Source: Rhodococcus gordoniae
GTDB lineage: Bacteria; Actinomycetota; Actinomycetes; Mycobacteriales; Mycobacteriaceae
NCBI RefSeq assembly: GCF_001646655.1
Contig: NZ_LPZN01000012.1
Span: 1 to 56,009 of the forward strand
DNA: 56,009 nt
Direction of reading: 5' to 3'
Shown here: in pieces, positions 563 to 51,052 of the stretch
Layout of the letters: each line of letters begins with the position of its first letter
Position numbering within the stretch: the stretch's first letter is position 1
Notes under the pieces: model-generated
Database searches by the model: none
Told to the model about the DNA's origin: nothing
Seen by the model: the letters and a program-made list of their open reading frames with translations, nothing else
Program-made: the position numbers and the translations under genes

Positions 563-2068
563 TTGACGCCCAAGATCGCCATTCTCGGAGCAGGTCCCAG
601 TGGACTCGCGCAGCTGCGCGCATTCGAAGCAGCCCGAAAGGCCGGTCTGGAGCAGATCCCCGACATCGTCTGCTACGAGAAGCAGCCCGATTGGGGCGGA
701 ATGTGGAACTACACCTGGCGCACGGGACTCGACGAGAACGGTGAACCCGTCCACGCGAGCATGTACCGCTACCTGTGGTCCAACGGCCCCAAGGAATGCC
801 TCGAGTTCGCCGACTACTCCTTCGAAGAGCACTTCGGCCGCCCGATCCCGTCGTACCCGCCACGGGCCGTCCTGCTCGACTACATCATGGGCCGCGTCGC
901 CGAGAGCGACGTGCGCAAGTACATCCGCTTCAACACTGCAGTGCGGTGGGTCGACTGGTCGGACGAGACGCAGAAGTTCACCGTGACGGTGATGGACCAC
1001 AACCGCGGCGTCCTCGAATCCGACGAGTTCGACTACGTCGTCGTCGCGACCGGCCACTTCTCCACTCCGAACGTTCCCCACTTCGAGGGCCTCGACCGGT
1101 TCCCGGGACGCGTACTGCACGCCCACGACTTCCGCGACGCCCGCGAGTTCACCGGAAAGCGCCTGCTCCTCGTCGGCAGCAGCTACTCCGCCGAGGACAT
1201 CGGCACCCAGTGCGTCAAGTACGGCGCCGAACAAGTGACCTTCAGCTACCGCACTGCACCCATGGGTCACGACTGGCCCGAACAATTCTCCGAGGTACCG
1301 CTGCTCACCCACGTCGACGGCAAGGTCGCCCACTTCCAGGACGGCAGCACGCGCGAGGTCGACGCCATCGTGCTGTGCACGGGATACAAGCACCACTATC
1401 CGTTCCTGCCCGACGAACTGTCGCTGCGCACCAACAACCGGTTGTACCCGCGCGACATCTACAAGGGCATCTTCTTCCAGCGCAATCCGAGGTTGATGTA
1501 CCTCGGCGCACAGGACCAGTACTTCACGTTCAACATGTTCGACGCGCAGGCCTGGTACGCACGCGACGTCATGCTCGGCCGCGTCGACCTGCCCGATCTC
1601 GCCACCCGCGAGAAGGACATCGACGTGTGGCGGGCACGCGAGGAGAAGCTGTCGTCACCGGTGGAGGACATCGACTTCCAGGCCGCCTACATCCGCGATC
1701 TCGTCGACCGCACCGACTACCCCGAGTTCCACGTCGAACGCCAGGGCGAGGTGTTCAAGCAGTGGAAGAAGGACAAGAAGAACGACATCATGGGGTACCG
1801 GAACAAGAGCTACGCCTCGACGTTGACCGGCACCCTCGCTCCGCCGCTGCCGGCGCCGTGGATGGAGATCCTCGACGACTCCCCCGAGTCCTTCCTGAGT
1901 CAGGATTTCACCCGCAACGGCTCGGGGCAGCTCGGGCCGGCAGCGCAGAACGGGACCGCAGTGCAGAACGGGACCGGCGAAGGCCGGACGATCGGCCGGC
2001 ACCGTGCCCCGGCCGCGCGCCGCCCGGTCCGGCCGACCGCATCACGCACCGTTCCCGTCAAGGCGTGA
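563..2068 (+). CDS. tmm: Flavin-containing monooxygenase, trimethylamine monooxygenase-like
   Basis: Class B FAD/NADPH monooxygenase, 501 aa. The likely reaction is N-oxygenation of trimethylamine to TMAO. FAD motif GAGPSG is at residues 9-14, the FMO fingerprint FxGxxxHxxxF at 180-190, an NADPH-loop motif VGSSYSAED near 204-212 and LCTGYKHH further on. Stretches such as [35 protein letters not shown] and [15 protein letters not shown] match the bacterial Tmm proteins of marine proteobacteria as I remember them. I chose TTG at 563 because AGGAG at 551-555 sits 7 nt upstream and the protein then starts [11 protein letters not shown]; an in-frame ATG at 506 would add an unrelated stretch. The last ~60 residues form a low-complexity Gly/Asn/Arg-rich tail not expected in Tmm. 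No other methylamine genes are nearby. Substrate is inferred from similarity. Confidence 0.82.
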
Positions 2069-2127
2069 TGTCGGGCATTTCGTCGCCGGCCCTCGATGCC
2101 GCCCCTCGGGAGTGCGCATCCGATGGC

Positions 2128-2133
2128 TAGTCT
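2128..2133 (+). promoter_or_regulatory. -10 box (TAGTCT) of leaderless orn promoter
   Basis: TAGTCT fits the actinobacterial TANNNT -10 pattern and ends 7 nt before the GTG at 2141, so transcription should begin at the start codon itself. Confidence 0.6.
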
Positions 2134-2140
2134 GTCTGTC

Positions 2141-2740
2141 GTGCAGGACAAACTCGTATGGATCGACTGTGAGATGACAGGGCTGCGTCTCGGCAGCGAC
2201 AAATTGATCGAGATCGCAGCTCTGGTCACCGACAGTGATCTCAACGTGCTCGGCGAGGGCGTGGACATCGTCATCCACGCCGATGACGACGCCCTCGCCG
2301 ACATGCCGGCGGTCGTGCAGCAGATGCACGAGCGGTCCGGGCTCACCGAGGAGGTGCGGCGCTCGACGGTCAGCCTCGCCGAGGCGGAGAAGCAGGTCCT
2401 CGCGTACATCCGCGAGCACGTCACCGAGGCCGGCACGGCCCCGCTGGCGGGCAACTCCATCGCGACCGACCACGCATTCATCACCCGCGACATGCCCGAG
2501 CTCGACAACTACCTGCACTACCGCATGGTGGACGTCAGCTCGATCAAGGAGCTGTGCCGGCGCTGGTATCCGCGCATCTACTTCGGCCAGCCGGAGAAGG
2601 GACTGTCGCACCGGGCGCTCGCCGACATCAAGGAGTCGATCCGCGAACTGCGCTACTACCGACGCACGGCGTTCGTGGCGCCCCCCGGCCCCACCCCGGC
2701 CGACCTCGCAGCCGTCGTGAAGGACCTGGGACCGGCCTGA
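2141..2740 (+). CDS. orn: Oligoribonuclease (DEDD exonuclease)
   Basis: 3'-to-5' exoribonuclease that degrades di- to penta-ribonucleotides, including pGpG, to mononucleotides in the cytoplasm. The 199-aa protein starts [15 protein letters not shown], with the first two acidic ligands in DCE, a central [12 protein letters not shown] motif, and [11 protein letters not shown] carrying the last His and Asp of the DEDDh set. The GTG at 2141 is preferred over ATG at 2123 because it gives the usual family N-terminus and sits 7 nt after a TANNNT box. Followed by tRNA-His as in mycobacteria. Length is close to the usual 180-215 aa. Confidence 0.95.
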
Positions 2741-2773
2741 CCAGCCGATTCGTCTTTTCCGTCATCGTCAGGC

Positions 2774-2779
2774 TAGTAT
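2774..2779 (+). promoter_or_regulatory. Candidate -10 box (TAGTAT) for tRNA-His
   Basis: TAGTAT is a good TANNNT -10 element about 47 nt before the tRNA-His gene. No convincing -35 is visible. Confidence 0.45.
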
Positions 2780-2826
2780 CTGTACCGCAGGCGCAAGCGG
2801 CCGAGAGGTTGCCGGCGAATGCGATG

Positions 2827-2899
2827 GTGAGTGTAGTTCAGTTGGTAGAGCACCAGGTTGTGATCCTGGCTGTCGCGGGTTCGAGTCCCGTCACTCACC
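2827..2899 (+). tRNA. tRNA-His (GTG anticodon)
   Basis: Acceptor arms GTGAGTG and CACTCAC pair, the TTCGAGTCC T-loop is present, and the anticodon loop reads TTGTGAT with anticodon GTG. The base before the acceptor is G (2826) and the discriminator is C (2899), the G-1:C73 pair diagnostic of tRNA-His. CCA is not encoded. Confidence 0.97.
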
Positions 2900-2908
2900 C
2901 CGAAGAAA

Positions 2909-2938
2909 CCCCCGATCGGATTCCCGATCGGGGGTTTT
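2909..2938 (+). terminator. Rho-independent terminator after tRNA-His
   Basis: An 11-bp perfect stem CCCCCGATCGG / CCGATCGGGGG with a 4-nt loop is followed by TTTT and starts 10 nt after the tRNA. Confidence 0.9.
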
Positions 2939-3025
2939 CTCGTCCACGACGAATCTTCACGCGCCGAACCGGGGTTCGCCGACGTTACAGCGCGCGCACG
3001 GCCCGGTTCGGGGCGCGAGGCGGGT

Positions 3026-4171
3026 CTATTCGAACGAGCGGGCCACGAACGCGCCGACCTCGGGCAGCGAACGCTCGACCGTCGTGTAGTGCCCGGCCAT
3101 GTAGACGCGATAGTCGACGTCCGCTCCTGCGGCCTTCATGTCGGCGGCGAGGGCCGCAGAAAGCGGCAGCGGGACCACCACGTCGTGGACGCCGTGGGCG
3201 AGGAACACCGGCCGGTCGTATCCGTTCGCCGGAGCGGCGAGATAATCGGCGAGCAGCGCCGCCATGGGCTCCTCGGCCAACGGACGCGCGAGCAACTCAC
3301 CGACCCGGATGCCGCGCACCGACTCCTCGAGATCGTCGTAACACAGCTCTTCGGCCCGGTCGACGACCTCCCGGCCGACAGGAGTCAGGAAGCTGTCGAC
3401 GTCCACCTCGGGGTAGGCATCGCGCAGCCCCGCGAAGATGTAGCCGCTGAAACTGACCAGACCCCCCAGCCCGGGATCCGGGAAACCCGGCACGCCGATC
3501 GTGAAGGCCCGCTCGAGATTCGCCGGTGCGCCCGTGGCGACCGTTCCGCGGAAGTCGAGTTCGGGTGCCCGGAAGGTCGCGATCGTGGCGGTGTGCAGCG
3601 CCGCGTGCCCTCCTTGCGACTGGCCCATCACGAGCCACCGCTCGGACAGCGGTGCCCCGCCCGCGCGGGCCGCCCGGACGATGTCGACGATACTGTTCGC
3701 GGCACTGGGGCCGTCGAGATAACGATGGAGACCTTCGGAGCCGAGACCGGGGAAGTCGGCAGAGACGATCGCGTAACCGGAGTCGAGCCAGTGCCGCAGA
3801 TAGGTGCGTTCCAGAGCGGATCGCGGCGTGCGGGTCGTGAGTGCGCAGTCGTCGCCCACGCCGGTCGTGCCGTGTGCCCACGCGATGACGGGCCAGCCAC
3901 CTTCGGGGGCGTCACCTTCGGGCAGGAACAACGCCCCGGTGGCGACGGTCGGCTCTCCCGACCGCCACTCGGTGCGGTATTCGAGCTTCGTCGCGGTGCC
4001 CGCGCCTGGCAGCGACACCTCCTCGGGCAGCGGCTGCTGTGAGACGACGGCACCGGGCGTCGACGCGGTCGACGACGCGACCGGAGCCGCCGCAGCCCCC
4101 GTCGGCGTCAGCGATGCGAGCAGTACGGCACCGCAGAATGCGGCGCGCAACGCTCGCCCCCGAACGGCCAT
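3026..4171 (-). CDS. Secreted alpha/beta hydrolase, secretory lipase-like
   Basis: Predicted exported esterase/lipase of 381 aa. The N-terminus MAVRGRALRAAFCGAVLLAS followed by ...TGAAAAP looks like a Sec signal peptide. The fold shows VIAWAHGTTG (oxyanion region, about 95-104), DFPGLGSEG, the nucleophile elbow GQSQGG with Ser185, then HGVHDVVVPL and AGHYTTVE near the C-terminus carrying likely Asp and His. This pattern fits the secretory lipase family. The ATG at 4171 has AGAGGGG 4 nt upstream; an alternative GTG at 4192 would overlap the stop of the upstream transpeptidase gene (GTGA) and suggests translational coupling. Substrate unknown. Confidence 0.8.
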   Translation of the reverse strand: MAVRGRALRAAFCGAVLLASLTPTGAAAAPVASSTASTPGAVVSQQPLPEEVSLPGAGTATKLEYRTEWRSGEPTVATGALFLPEGDAPEGGWPVIAWAHGTTGVGDDCALTTRTPRSALERTYLRHWLDSGYAIVSADFPGLGSEGLHRYLDGPSAANSIVDIVRAARAGGAPLSERWLVMGQSQGGHAALHTATIATFRAPELDFRGTVATGAPANLERAFTIGVPGFPDPGLGGLVSFSGYIFAGLRDAYPEVDVDSFLTPVGREVVDRAEELCYDDLEESVRGIRVGELLARPLAEEPMAALLADYLAAPANGYDRPVFLAHGVHDVVVPLPLSAALAADMKAAGADVDYRVYMAGHYTTVERSLPEVGAFVARSFE

Positions 4172-4188
4172 CGATCCCCTCTGATCCG

Positions 4189-5403
4189 TCACGCCGCAGC
4201 GTTACCGGCCTTCCATGTGGACCACGGAATGTTCCAGTCACCGAGTCCGTCCGTCCCCGGGAGAACACCGCCGACCGTGTTACGGACCACGACGATGTCG
4301 CCGCGCTTGGTGTTGTCGAAGATCCATTTCGCGTTGGCGGGGCTCAGGTTCAGGCAACCGTGGCTGACGTTGCGGACGCCCTGGTCGCCGAGTGACCACG
4401 GTGCAGAGTGGAAGAAGATGCCGCTGTAGGACATCCGCGTCGCCCAGTCCACCGGAGTGCGGTAGCCCTGCGCCGAGTCGGAGGGAACGCCGTAGGTGGA
4501 CGAGTCCATGATCATGTTCTCGAACCGGTCGCCGATGATGTAGACGCCGTTCGGGGTGGGCGTGGAGTCCTTGCCGAAGGACGTCGCCATCGTGATGACG
4601 TCGACGCCGTTTCGGGTGACGGTGACCTGCTTGGTCGCGTCGTCGGCGGTGATGATCACCGCATCGCCGATGGTGAAGGACGAATGGACGTCGGACTGGC
4701 CGAAGAGACCGTCGCCGAGATCCTTGCCGTAGACGTTCACGTCGACGGTGACGGTGGTGCCGGGAGTCCAGTAGTTCTCCGGGCGCCACCGCACCTCACG
4801 GTTGTTGACCCAGTAGAAGGCGCCCTCGACCGGAGGGTTCGTGGTGACGGTGACGGCCGATTCGGCCGCGAGCCGGTCCGGGATGTTCTCGTCGAACTGC
4901 ACGGCGATCGGCTGACCGATGCCCACGATCGAGCCCTCACCGGGCAACACGTAGGGCTGGGTGAGATTCGCGGGCGACGACGTGGTGAACGCCGCGGTCG
5001 AGGTGGTCGCGCCGCCGAGTCCGTACGCGACCGTCTCGAGGGTGTAGGAGCGGTTGTAACCGAGGGGTTCGGTGTTCACCCAGGTCAGTCCGTCGGCGGC
5101 GAGTTCGCCCTGCACCGGCTCCCCCGCCGGGTCGAGCAGGGTCACCGAATCGAGCTTGCCGTTGACGACCGAGACGGTCACCGGATCGATCGGCGAGAAG
5201 CCGACCGAGCCGTCGGCCACACTCGACGACACCGTCGGCTTGATGAGCGCGGCCACGGGATTGGAGTCGATCGGCACCTCCTCGGCGCCCGAACCCGTAC
5301 CGCCCGCACATCCGGTGACAAATGCCACAACGCCGACGACGACCACTCCGAGGATCCCTCGCACCCGACGACCCCGGGGGTTCCGCGCACTCGATTCCGC
5401 CAT
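4189..5403 (-). CDS. L,D-transpeptidase lipoprotein (LppS-like) with Ig-like domains
   Basis: Cell-wall enzyme making 3-3 peptide cross-links in peptidoglycan. The 404-aa protein has a signal sequence ending VTGCAGG (lipidated Cys32), two Ig-like beta domains (about 50-150 and 150-245), and a C-terminal YkuD domain. The catalytic signature is complete: [13 protein letters not shown] followed by [14 protein letters not shown] with the nucleophilic Cys. ATG 5403 is chosen because GGAG at 5411-5414 lies 7 nt upstream; ATG 5409 is only 1 nt from it. The location between orn and bcp matches lppS (Rv2518c) in M. tuberculosis. Probably co-transcribed with the downstream hydrolase, 17 nt apart. Confidence 0.93.
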
Positions 5404-47676: not shown

Positions 47677-48909
47677 ATGGTCTTCGATCGTGATCGCGCA
47701 CCCAGCCACCTGCCGTTCTCCATCGTGCGGAAGGGCTTCGACCGCGACGAGGTGACCAACTACTTCGCCCGGTTCGAAGCCGAGCTGCGCGTGACCGCCA
47801 CCGACCGCGACGCCGCCGCCGCGCAGGCCCGCGATCTGGCCCGTCAGCTCGAGAACGCCCGCAACGAAATCGACGAACTCCGCAAGGACGTCGACCGGCT
47901 GTCGGTGCCTCCCACCACTGCAGAGGGCATGAGCGACCGCATCTCACGGATGCTGCGGCTCGCCTCCGACGAGGCCTCCGAGCTGCGTGCCCGTGCCGAG
48001 GCCGACGCCGCCGAGATGATCTCGCTCGCGGAGCAGGAGGGCATCCGCCTCCGGGGCGACTACGAGAAGAAGCTCGCCGAACTCGAGGACACCCGCGTCG
48101 CCTTCGCGGCCGAGCACGAGCGGACGATGACCGCGGCCCGCGCGGAGGCCGAACGGATCGTCGCTGCGGCCCGCGCGGAAGCCGAGCGACTTGCCGCCGA
48201 GGCCGAGGCCAAGCGCGAGCAGGTGCAGCAGGATTTCGAGATCACGATGGCCGAACGCCGCACCAAGGTGCTCGGCTCCCTCGACGAACTCGAACGGACG
48301 AGCAAGGCCGAAGCCGAGCGCCGTCTCGAGGAAGCCACGCAGGAAGCCGAACGGCGACTCACCCAGGCCACCGAACAGTCCGAGCGGAAGGTGTCGAACG
48401 CGCGCGACCTCACCGAGGAACTCCGTGTGCTGCGCGGGCGCATCCTCGGCCAGCTCGACGCCGTTCGCGAACAGCTCGACGACGTCCCCACCCTGCTCGC
48501 AGCGATCACCCGCGAAGGCGAACTGCTCGACCGGGAGATCTCCCTCGACGAGCCCCGCACGACCGTCCTCGGCACGGCGCGCGACAACAAGCAGGGTGGC
48601 GACAAGCAGGGTTCGGACGACGAGAGTCCGAAGGAGCCGGCATCCCCCGAGGCCGACGCGAAGGCGGACAAGACCGCGCCGCTGCCGCAGACCGACAAAA
48701 CCACGCCCATGCCGCAGGCCGACCGGACGGTGCGGATCCCGAAGAGCGACGCCTCCGGCCCGAACTCGGCCGCGCAGCCGAACAGCGGCGCACAGGGATC
48801 CCAGTCCACTCCGCGTACGCCGAACGCCTCGGCGCCGCATCGCTCGCCCTCGGTCGGTGCCGGTGCGCAGGGTCGCTCCCCTGCCGTGGCCAGCAAGGTC
48901 CGCAACTGA
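47677..48909 (+). CDS. DivIVA-domain coiled-coil protein
   Basis: 410 aa. Residues ~12-37 ([19 protein letters not shown]) match the DivIVA N-terminal membrane-curvature motif. Residues ~45-280 are an almost continuous coiled coil with [20 protein letters not shown]-type heptads. From about residue 300 the chain is disordered, and ~329-357 contain three 9-residue repeats ([27 protein letters not shown]). DivIVA relatives in actinobacteria organise polar growth; this is not Wag31 itself because the length and tail differ. A cell-pole scaffold role is an inference. Confidence 0.82.
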
Positions 48910-48964
48910 CGAGTTCGGCGAACACGCCGATCGACATCATCTCCGGGTCGGTCACAGGCCCATC

Positions 48965-49637
48965 ATGAAGCTTCGACCGACTCGAAGGTCAAGCCCGACG
49001 GCCGGCGACCGTCGGATCGACCGCGAGCGCATTGCGGTTCTACGACGACGCCGGCCTGCTGCGTCCCGAGCAGGTCGATCCGTCGACGGGATACCGGTTC
49101 TACAGTCGCTCCCAGGTCCCGCGCGCCTGCCGGCTGCGGCAGTTGCGGGAGATCGGGATGCCGCTGCTCGCCATCGGCGAGTTCTTCGCCACCGACGCGG
49201 ACGAGGCCGCACGGCTGCTCGACGACCACGTCGCCGGGATGACCACGGAGGCCGAGAGGCTCCGACGGGCCGCCGAGACACTCGGGGCGTCCTTGCGTGC
49301 CGAATCCCGCCGCGTGATCTGCACGGTGCCGGGACCCGTCCTCGCCGGCGCCGTCGATCAGGTCTCCGCCTCCACCGGTCACGACCCCGACATCCCGGTG
49401 CTGAACGGCGTGCACATGGAAACCGGATCCGGCTGCGTGAGGCTGACTGCCACCGACCGGTACCGGCTCGCCACCCGGACGCTCGTGCCCACCGATCCGA
49501 CCTGCCCGTCCTGGGCCGGCACACTCGCCGGCGACGACCTGCTGCTCGACATTCGCGGCACCGATCTGCCCGTCACCGTCCGGTCGGCCGACGACGGGGA
49601 TCTCACCACACTCGTCATGCCGCGCAGCGCCCCCTGA
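48965..49637 (+). pseudogene. MerR-type regulator fused to a sliding-clamp-like domain, 5' frame disrupted
   Basis: From TTG 49032 the frame reads LRFYDDAGLLRPEQVDPSTG, the second half of a MerR DNA-binding domain, then a helical dimerisation region (to about residue 85) and a domain beginning LAGAVDQVSASTGHDPDIPVL followed by VRLTATDRYRLATRTLVP. The latter resembles one domain of the DNA polymerase III beta clamp (compare its ATDRFRLAVREL signature). The first half of the MerR helix-turn-helix has no start codon in this frame: an in-frame TGA lies at 48966. Removing one A from ATGAAGC (48965-48971) would join an ATG to the frame and give ...RRPATVGSTASALRFYDD. So it is either a frameshifted gene, a sequencing error, or an N-truncated protein of ~201 aa. 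MerR-clamp fusions occur in actinobacteria; function unknown. Confidence 0.6.
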
Positions 49638-49711: not shown

Positions 49712-50013
49712 ATGTCCACTTCCCCCTCGACGCTGCCGATGTCCTCACCGACGAGCGCGCCCGAAAACACCACGACACCCTCCGCGTCGCGGGCTTCCAT
49801 CCGAGCCTGCACCTGAACCTGGCCGACGACTTCCGCCGTCTCGGGTCGTTCCGGGCGGCCGCGGAACATCTCGACCGCGCGCAGGACCACATGTCCGCGC
49901 TCCCCGACGATCCCTACGGCGACACCATCCGCACAGCCCTGCACGAGGTGCGGCAGGCGATCACCGACCGCGACACCGCGCCGCGAGCGTCCGCACCCGG
50001 TACCGCCCGCTGA
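49712..50013 (+). pseudogene. TPR-like small protein with a -1 frameshift near its start
   Basis: ATG 49712 has AGGAG 7 nt upstream but its frame ends at 49816. The conserved-looking protein is in another frame: LDAADVLTDERARKHHDTLR, HPSLHLNLADDFRRLGSFRA, AAEHLDRAQDHMSALPDDPYG, ending at TGA 50011-50013. One extra C in the CCCCC run at 49722-49726 would join MSTSP directly to LDAADVL. The LNLADDFRRLGxFxAAxEHL pattern looks like a single TPR unit. Function unknown. The break may be a sequencing error or real decay; the neighbouring gene is also frame-disrupted. Confidence 0.55.
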
Positions 50014-50051: not shown

Positions 50052-50375
50052 CTAGGACCAGCGTCGGGTGGGTCGGCGGGTGCCGCGTCCCGCCCAGCAT
50101 CCGCTGTGCCAGTGCCGCCGGTCCTCCGTCCCGCCGAGCGCATCGGTCGGCCACGCGACGACGTGGGGCGTTCCCGGCGCGATCTCGTGATCGCATCCCG
50201 GGCACCGGTACGGCTTCGTGGCGCGCGAGCCCGGCACGGTGCGCACGGTGAAGCGCTCCCCCTCGGCCCCCGCGGGTCCGTTCTCGGTGCGCACCGTCGC
50301 CCCGAAATAGGTCGGGGCCTCGCCGGACGCCCCGCCGCGCTTGCGGTCGGTGCGGGATCTGTTGCGGCGCGGCAC
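50052..50375 (-). CDS. Small zinc-ribbon protein co-transcribed with nucS
   Basis: 107 aa. A basic N-terminus (PRRNRSRTDRKRGGASG) is followed by FGATVRTENGP and a likely zinc site formed by YRCPGCDHEI and HWHSGCW. GTG 50375 starts 2 nt after the nucS stop, so the pair is certainly co-transcribed. I recognise it as a conserved actinobacterial companion of nucS but not by function; nucleic-acid binding is a guess from the basic tail and zinc ribbon. Confidence 0.75.
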   Translation of the reverse strand: MPRRNRSRTDRKRGGASGEAPTYFGATVRTENGPAGAEGERFTVRTVPGSRATKPYRCPGCDHEIAPGTPHVVAWPTDALGGTEDRRHWHSGCWAGRGTRRPTRRWS

Positions 50376-50377
50376 GA

Positions 50378-51052
50378 TCAGAACAATCTGAACTCGGTGC
50401 TCTCGGTGCCCCGCATCGCCTCGTAGTCGAGCACGAGGCAGCGGATGCCGCGGTCGGTGGCCAATGTCCGTGCCTGCGGCTTGATCTGCTGCGCCGCGAA
50501 CACGCCGCTGACCGGAGCGAGCAGCGGATCCCTGTTGAGCAGTTCGAGGTAACGGGTGAGCTGCTCCACACCGTCGATCTCGCCGCGACGCTTCACCTCC
50601 ACAGCGACGGTCGCACCGTCGGCGTCGCGGCACAGCAGATCCACGGGCCCGATCGCCGTGGGGTATTCGCGCCGGATGAGAGTGAAACCCGTCCCGAGGG
50701 TCTCGACGTGCTCGGCGAGCAGTTCCTGTAGGTGTGCCTCGACGCCGTCCTTGATCAGACCGGGATCGACACCGAGTTCGTGGCTCGAATCGTGGTCGAT
50801 CTCTTCGAGAGTGATCCGGAGCTGTTCGCCTGCCTTGTTCGTGACCACCCACAGGGCCTCGGCGTCCTCGGCCGATTCCTCTTCGAGCCAGCAGGGTGGG
50901 CTCATCCAGTTCAGAGGCTTGTAGGCACGGTCGTCGGCGTGGACACTCACCGAACCGTCGGATTTGACGAGAAGGAGACGTCGGGCCGTCGGCAGATGAG
51001 CCGTCAGGCGTCCGATGTAGTCCACACGGCAACGGGCAATCACAAGACGCAC
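50378..51052 (-). CDS. nucS: Mismatch-specific endonuclease NucS/EndoMS
   Basis: 224 aa. Makes double-strand cuts at mismatches and provides the non-canonical, MutS-independent mismatch repair of actinobacteria. The PD-(D/E)XK nuclease core is visible: Asp138 in [10 protein letters not shown], and Glu152-Val-Lys154 in VAVEVKRRG, plus QLTRYLELL. The protein ends STEFRLF, a plausible sliding-clamp-binding tail as described for this family. GTG 51052 is 6 nt after a -10 box TAGGGT, so the message is leaderless. Same place as Rv1321. Confidence 0.95.

Follow-up and report, generated by a model that had tools for sequence, protein, structure and literature searches.

A remnant of a gene encoding a MerR-type regulator fused to part of the DNA polymerase III beta clamp (DnaN), here called MerR-clamp, was examined in a 56,009-nucleotide stretch of Rhodococcus gordoniae DNA (contig NZ_LPZN01000012.1), this whole stretch being referred to as the window. 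The remnant is represented by an open reading frame (ORF) of 201 amino acids at 49032-49637 on the plus strand, the first start codon of which is TTG. Two Pfam models were found to match it above their curated cut-offs, namely MerR_1 (E 9e-9), covering profile positions 18-65 of 69 and thus a helix-turn-helix (HTH) without its first part, and DNA_pol3_beta_2 (E 2.9e-8), covering positions 2-54 of 116. The best eight matches in a sequence search of the PDB with the same ORF were beta clamps (E 9e-9 to 3e-7). The MerR domain and the portion of the beta-clamp central domain in this ORF are real and lie far above chance. This bears out the fusion described in a first-pass annotation made from the sequence alone, with the MerR and the DnaN-domain similarity of 49032-49637 both being significant. 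The features identified at the locus are as follows:

48908..49013, minus strand: inverted segment holding the promoter of the MerR-clamp gene together with its start and initial 16 codons (blastn against five siblings; ends GACG/CGTC)
48962..48992, minus strand: MerR-type promoter/operator, with -35 TTGACC, a 19-bp spacer holding a dyad and -10 CATGAT (operator pattern search)
48908..48955, minus strand: GTG start and first 16 codons, severed from the remaining MerR-clamp gene (GTG six bases past the -10 box, like relatives)
49011..49325, plus strand: remaining MerR HTH and linking helix, from family residue ~16 (MerR_1; alignment to an intact relative, residues 16-192)
49326..49541, plus strand: first half of clamp domain II, including the pocket-loop motif ATDRYRLATR (DNA_pol3_beta_2)
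49530..49541, plus strand: in-frame deletion junction where two matches overlap, family residues 193-315 being gone (the last part of domain II and most of III)
49530..49637, plus strand: C-terminal end of clamp domain III (...VRSADDGDLTTLVMPRSAP), followed by the stop codon (family residues 316-351, 67% identity)
49726..50010, plus strand: remnant of a downstream TPR-like gene, without start and ~74 N-terminal residues (tblastn, residues 75-169 of an intact relative, 67% identity)
50378..51052, minus strand: nucS, a neighbour outside the cassette (NF002876, E 2e-126)

Damage to the window copy

Comparison with five sibling genomes (blastn) showed that the segment 48908-49013 aligns on the minus strand with 85-98% identity (95-98% to the three closest siblings), its flanks aligning on the plus strand, and that the promoter segment has the normal orientation in all five. 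The window copy aligns to family residues 16-192 and 316-351 only, with the 123 residues in between (193-315) deleted in frame, while a second deletion relative to the siblings has removed the start and first ~74 residues of the TPR-like gene. No intact second copy of MerR-clamp was found in the genome, other matches being to the HTH alone or to the ordinary clamp gene. The MerR-clamp gene of sibling G004 is broken too, in a different manner, its frame stopping after 223 codons. The ratio of nonsynonymous to synonymous substitution rates (dN/dS) for the surviving coding part (170 codons) against four intact siblings was 0.10, 0.16, 0.18 and 0.44, and among the intact siblings (351 codons) it was 0.20-0.34, a pattern taken to mean that a gene under selection was damaged recently. 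What the window holds is, almost certainly, the remnant of a recently broken cassette.

Because the ends of the inverted segment share only GACG/CGTC (judged by eye on sibling DNA), the inversion looks like a one-off rearrangement and not a switch. The segment is clean and very close in sequence to that of the three nearest siblings, as a reversible phase-variation switch of a gene still in use would have it, but this explanation is scarcely credible given inverted repeats of a mere 4 bp (by eye), the accompanying loss of 123 coding residues and of the partner's beginning, and the opposite orientation in 5/5 siblings. The window copy should do nothing. The first-pass annotation had likewise thought it possibly inactive on account of a frame-disrupted 5’ part, which was correct but understated the damage, since neither the inversion of the promoter and 16 codons nor the in-frame clamp deletion had been seen. 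The inverted promoter now faces the 3’ part of a divIVA-like gene. On the same strand, ORF 48506-48955 would be a leaderless antisense frame of 149 amino acids opening with the first 16 residues of the regulator.

Intact relatives, their promoter and their partner gene

A search of public genomes with the window ORF returned 33 loci, all in actinomycetes by title, at which the encoded proteins are 342-360 amino acids in length (one being 405) and possess a complete DNA-binding half. MerR_1 was matched by all 23 intact relatives scanned, and PDB comparison placed their HTH with the multidrug regulators BrlR, EcmrR and ‘multidrug-efflux transporter 1 regulator’. Proteins of this kind are found in many soil bacteria. 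The relatives carry clamp domains II-III only, two thirds of the clamp, with no domain I, and their clamp half ends in a sequence like ...RSADDGDLTTLVMPxR. Fold comparison of intact relatives, spanning residues 91-350 (the clamp part, with the HTH outside), supports the clamp fold that the first-pass annotation had expected.

Matches to MerR-clamp were found in at least 107 of 301 sampled genomes of the taxonomic family, in 14 of 31 genera, and at least 6 genomes of a phylum sample of 198 carry it, the window genome included; six candidates were scored per genome in the family search and ten in the phylum search, so misses are possible. Four of the ten phylum matches (G054, G090, G101, G144) were set aside as ordinary clamps, as their alignments start no earlier than model position 115. 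Six plasmid records carry the gene, annotated as ‘MerR family transcriptional regulator’ in four and with no gene shown in two, and transposase-related genes lie within 5 kb in all three that were inspected. Four phage records were found to match over the HTH only. Flanking genes are not widely common to the loci. This distribution is consistent with a cassette that is mobile or frequently lost.

Several variant arrangements were observed among these genomes. On plasmid pADI95-16b (L171, NZ_CP033583.1, 1-1420 and 4995-6597), a plasmid dnaE lies ~3.6 kb upstream of the cassette. At another locus (L163 in G396, C23:33500-38500; 1788-3626, minus strand), a clamp part without HTH is fused in frame before a protein that, from a look at its sequence, resembles a coupling ATPase of conjugation, and the TPR gene comes next; G466 gave a match of the same kind. 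Furthermore, G040, which also matches MerR-clamp, possesses a second dnaN-like gene (C1:5443834-5444874) with 44% identity to DnaN of the window genome over residues 1-344; second clamps have elsewhere been linked to clamp-binding antibiotics.

All 33 loci share a promoter consisting of TTGACC (once TTGACA), a 19-bp spacer with an inverted repeat and an xAxxAT -10 box, with a GTG start six bases past that box (seven at two loci). Translation of MerR-clamp genes is probably leaderless, to judge by this spacing. The arrangement at the 33 loci is the one known for MerR-controlled promoters, combined with leaderless translation. A shorter operator pattern was found once in the window, against 0.00 matches expected from shuffled sequence, and the operator pattern has a single match in the window genome, at the inverted promoter 48962-48992. 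Across 34 genomes it was found at the gene's own promoter in 25 of 28 carriers, elsewhere twice, and in none of six non-carriers of the genus, with a reversed control pattern giving zero matches in the same 34. Two of the three carriers without a match lack any TTGACC-type element in the stretch that was read, and the third has a variant dyad outside the pattern. Because the operator pattern is nearly confined to the gene's own promoter, the main target of the regulator is likely to be its own operon. A wider regulon was considered and rejected, the two extra matches (G145, G485) being the only ones in the 34 genomes; in G485 no regulator-like gene was found alongside within the 3 kb read. In G145 (L162, 0-1472, minus strand) a similar operator stands before a different fusion, of a MerR HTH with a phosphatase domain that is PP2C-like to judge by its sequence.

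A TPR-like protein of ~165 amino acids follows the regulator at 28 of the 33 loci (tblastn), while at the divergent locus L165 its gene precedes the regulator. In G040 and G199, two divergent carriers of another genus, the 4.5 kb read contains no TPR match. ORF calling at 23 loci recovered the regulator at 22 and the TPR gene at 9, the locus without a regulator call (L031) being one where the caller took the opposite strand. The predicted model of the TPR protein has a mean confidence score (pLDDT) of 89.0 and its fold matches are weak, many being to TPR proteins. The gene was also identified on 23 plasmid records, 16 of them from Streptomyces clavuligerus, and is annotated ‘hypothetical protein’ in the plasmid records read. 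On plasmid pSCAT of Streptantibioticus cattleyicolor (L170, NC_016113.1, ~3906-4486) it stands under a closely similar operator with -10 GATGCT, and the 8.5 kb read around it gave no match to the regulator.

The clamp pocket and its possible function

Residues of the peptide-binding pocket were taken from PMC11139829 in E. coli DnaN numbering, and 23 family members were aligned with 28 DnaN sequences. A first run used 31 DnaN rows, of which L116, L122 and L125 were dropped as they look like wrong frames or proteins; the picture was the same. In subsite I, L155, T172, L177, P242 and M362 are identical in all 23 family members and R176 in 22, while position 175 is Y or F in all 23, as in 27 of 28 DnaN. 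Subsite I was found to be nearer to DnaN than equally conserved DnaN positions are, with 49 of 5000 random draws reaching the observed value. By alignment, most of the deep hydrophobic subsite I is retained. Positions 271-274, which include the ring contact I272/L273, are gapped in 23/23; because this segment is missing and domain I is absent, the clamp part, as aligned, cannot form a sliding ring. A new, near-invariant stretch, ADDGDLTT, stands before M362-P363. A quick tree groups the clamp parts in a single clade (support 1.0) that sits within actinobacterial DnaN, with parent clades at 0.79-0.94, but it does not resolve the exact parent.

MerR regulators switch on over-long promoters when a ligand reshapes the dimer. 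The intact protein is probably a one-component, self-regulating ligand sensor that works in the manner of TipA. In relatives, the cassette consists of a MerR regulator with clamp domains II-III as effector and, usually, the TPR-like protein, under one promoter. The clamp part would bind its ligand at the retained subsite I, and binding would twist the over-long promoter into an active form in the MerR manner, raising the regulator itself and the TPR partner. The likeliest ligands would be molecules that attack the genuine clamp in this pocket, the cyclic peptide antibiotics of actinomycetes (griselimycins, mycoplanecins) being examples, with the clamp look-alike serving as both drug sensor and sponge. 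That the ligand is a clamp-binding small molecule is plausible, although we lean slightly towards doubt on this point. Griselimycins and mycoplanecins are natural-product ligands of the clamp pocket, and the clusters of their actinomycete producers carry second clamp genes (PMC10817943). Overall, the best reading, to which we give somewhat less than even confidence, is a self-regulating, TipA-like sensor for clamp-binding molecules, perhaps griselimycin-type antibiotics. A more novel version of it must be regarded as doubtful, namely a target look-alike sensor in which a MerR HTH has acquired a piece of an antibiotic's own target, the sliding clamp, and natural products that bind the clamp thereby induce their own sponge and the TPR partner.

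A number of observations weigh against a sensor of clamp-binding molecules. Within subsite I, R152 is lost in 23/23 and R246 is kept in only 2/23, though the latter is present in just 2/28 DnaN. The signal for subsite I is weaker when scored by within-family conservation (233/5000), and for the whole pocket 287/5000 draws (DnaN conservation) and 724/5000 (within-family) reach the observed value. Subsite II is changed: N320, present in 28/28 DnaN, is lost in 23/23, position 323 is never Y or F (T in 21/23) and R365 is kept in 11/23, with P363 kept in 23/23; as a set it is no nearer to DnaN than random positions (3587/5000 and 3635/5000). Griselimycins occupy both subsites (PMC10817943). No internal start with a ribosome-binding-like site is common to the 24 genes compared over residues 61-135, so that no short form of the TipAS kind is evident; an ATG near residue 65 recurs among them, lying within the DNA-binding part and in most cases lacking such a site. 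The TPR gene was not found at 5/33 loci nor in the intact sibling G013, and a fold search with its product gave no match at E 0.001 or better. Lastly, in the flanks of 23 loci (~6 kb each side) only the regulator and TPR clusters recur in at least four loci, the neighbours being unannotated.

Other explanations were weighed against the same evidence. The clamp fold may have been reused as a scaffold for a ligand unrelated to clamp partners, an unlikely alternative to which the family-wide ADDGDLTT beside the pocket and the altered subsite II lend weight, while the closeness of subsite I to DnaN relative to comparable clamp positions (49/5000 draws) speaks against it. Somewhat more improbable is that the clamp part senses, or serves as a decoy for, proteins or peptides bearing a clamp-binding motif (polymerases, repair factors, phage clamp inhibitors), the operon thereby reporting replication or repair stress. 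Most of subsite I, the docking place of the LF part of that motif, is kept, and the pADI95-16b copy lies close to a plasmid dnaE; however, N320 and Y323 of subsite II, the seat of the conserved Gln, are lost, the operator pattern occurs at just two places other than the gene's own promoter in 34 genomes, and PADLOC, run on three proteins, gave a defence-model match in the HTH only. An anti-phage system was rejected as a candidate on the same PADLOC run, in which the HTH of two regulators matches mad1 and the TPR protein matches nothing.

The first-pass annotation had drawn attention to nucS and proposed that the fusion could be a regulator or decoy of mismatch repair. The gene does lie nearby, at 50378-51052 (minus strand), and its product ends in EFRLF, fitting four of the five positions of [E/K][L/Y][T/R]LF, which a review names as the clamp-binding tail of actinobacterial NucS (PMC8228993). 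MerR-clamp is matched in 11 of 18 genomes of the genus, and the nucS site was read in 17 of these 18 (one low-completeness genome being outside). The cassette was found between the divIVA-like gene and nucS in six. The 11 others have no cassette in the stretch read at nucS and, in 10/11, a divIVA-like gene on that side; five of these 11 carry the cassette on a contig other than that of nucS. Comparison of the neighbourhoods of intact homologues came out against a conserved linkage: nucS was found at 0/33 loci of named genomes within ~6 kb on each side (L023 being cut ~1.4 kb downstream). Among out-of-genus carriers, 80 of 96 were examined and nucS was found in 77; 22 have the two genes on the same contig, never within 50 kb (the closest at 59.5 kb), and in the remaining 55 the two are on different contigs, where distance is not measurable. 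The link was rejected on these counts, and the pairing, a matter of local history, appears incidental. Despite adjoining nucS in 6/18 genus genomes and the clamp-binding-like tail, a role in NucS-dependent mismatch repair, which its proposer had made to hang on conserved linkage, fails on these neighbourhood data and is very improbable. Overlapping the end of nucS, ORF 50052-50390 (minus strand) encodes 112 amino acids with CPGC and HSGC pairs, perhaps zinc-binding; it is 64-96% conserved in all 12 other genus genomes read there, with no Pfam match above cut-off.

Relation to known systems

TipA (TipAL/TipAS) and AlbA resemble MerR-clamp in consisting of a MerR HTH, a coil and an effector domain at the C-terminus. 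Drug binding makes TipA increase its own expression, its class being described as minimal autoregulated resistance systems, and it acts as sensor, self-activator and drug trap together, while an AlbA-like protein can shield the target of the drug (PMC6078987, PMC7762955). MerR-clamp shares this economy, seeming to control little beyond itself and its partner. The effectors differ, being the helical TipAS fold in TipA/AlbA and beta-clamp domains II-III in MerR-clamp; furthermore, TipA has a short form, whereas MerR-clamp genes showed no common internal start with a ribosome-binding site over the residues compared and have a TPR partner gene. BmrR-type regulators likewise join a MerR HTH to a separate ligand-binding fold of their own, which is GyrI-like (so named in PMC7762955) and not a clamp fold. 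DnaN itself consists of three repeated domains and forms a ring of two; MerR-clamp, which nests among actinobacterial DnaN, shares its domains II and III together with most of subsite I of the pocket, but lacks domain I and the ring-closing segment, is changed in subsite II and is fused to a MerR HTH. GriR and MypR, the second clamp genes of the griselimycin and mycoplanecin producers, are clamp homologues tied to clamp-binding antibiotics, as is proposed here for MerR-clamp; they encode clamps and are proposed self-resistance genes (PMC10817943), whereas MerR-clamp is a DNA-binding regulator that contains only a portion of the clamp. Searches of an open-access library aimed at a MerR regulator with a beta-clamp effector turned up nothing on this fusion among the papers listed, a scope that leaves most subscription papers outside, so that it may have been described elsewhere.

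As regards the window, the outcome is modest, namely a dead copy with no special tie to mismatch repair. The intact family offers a direct, testable link from the pocket of the replication clamp to gene control, and it may provide a natural biosensor for a class of drugs being studied against tuberculosis (PMC10817943). If the proposed reading is true, this family of look-alike sensors would mark actinomycetes that meet clamp-binding antibiotics and would provide a ready reporter for new ones.
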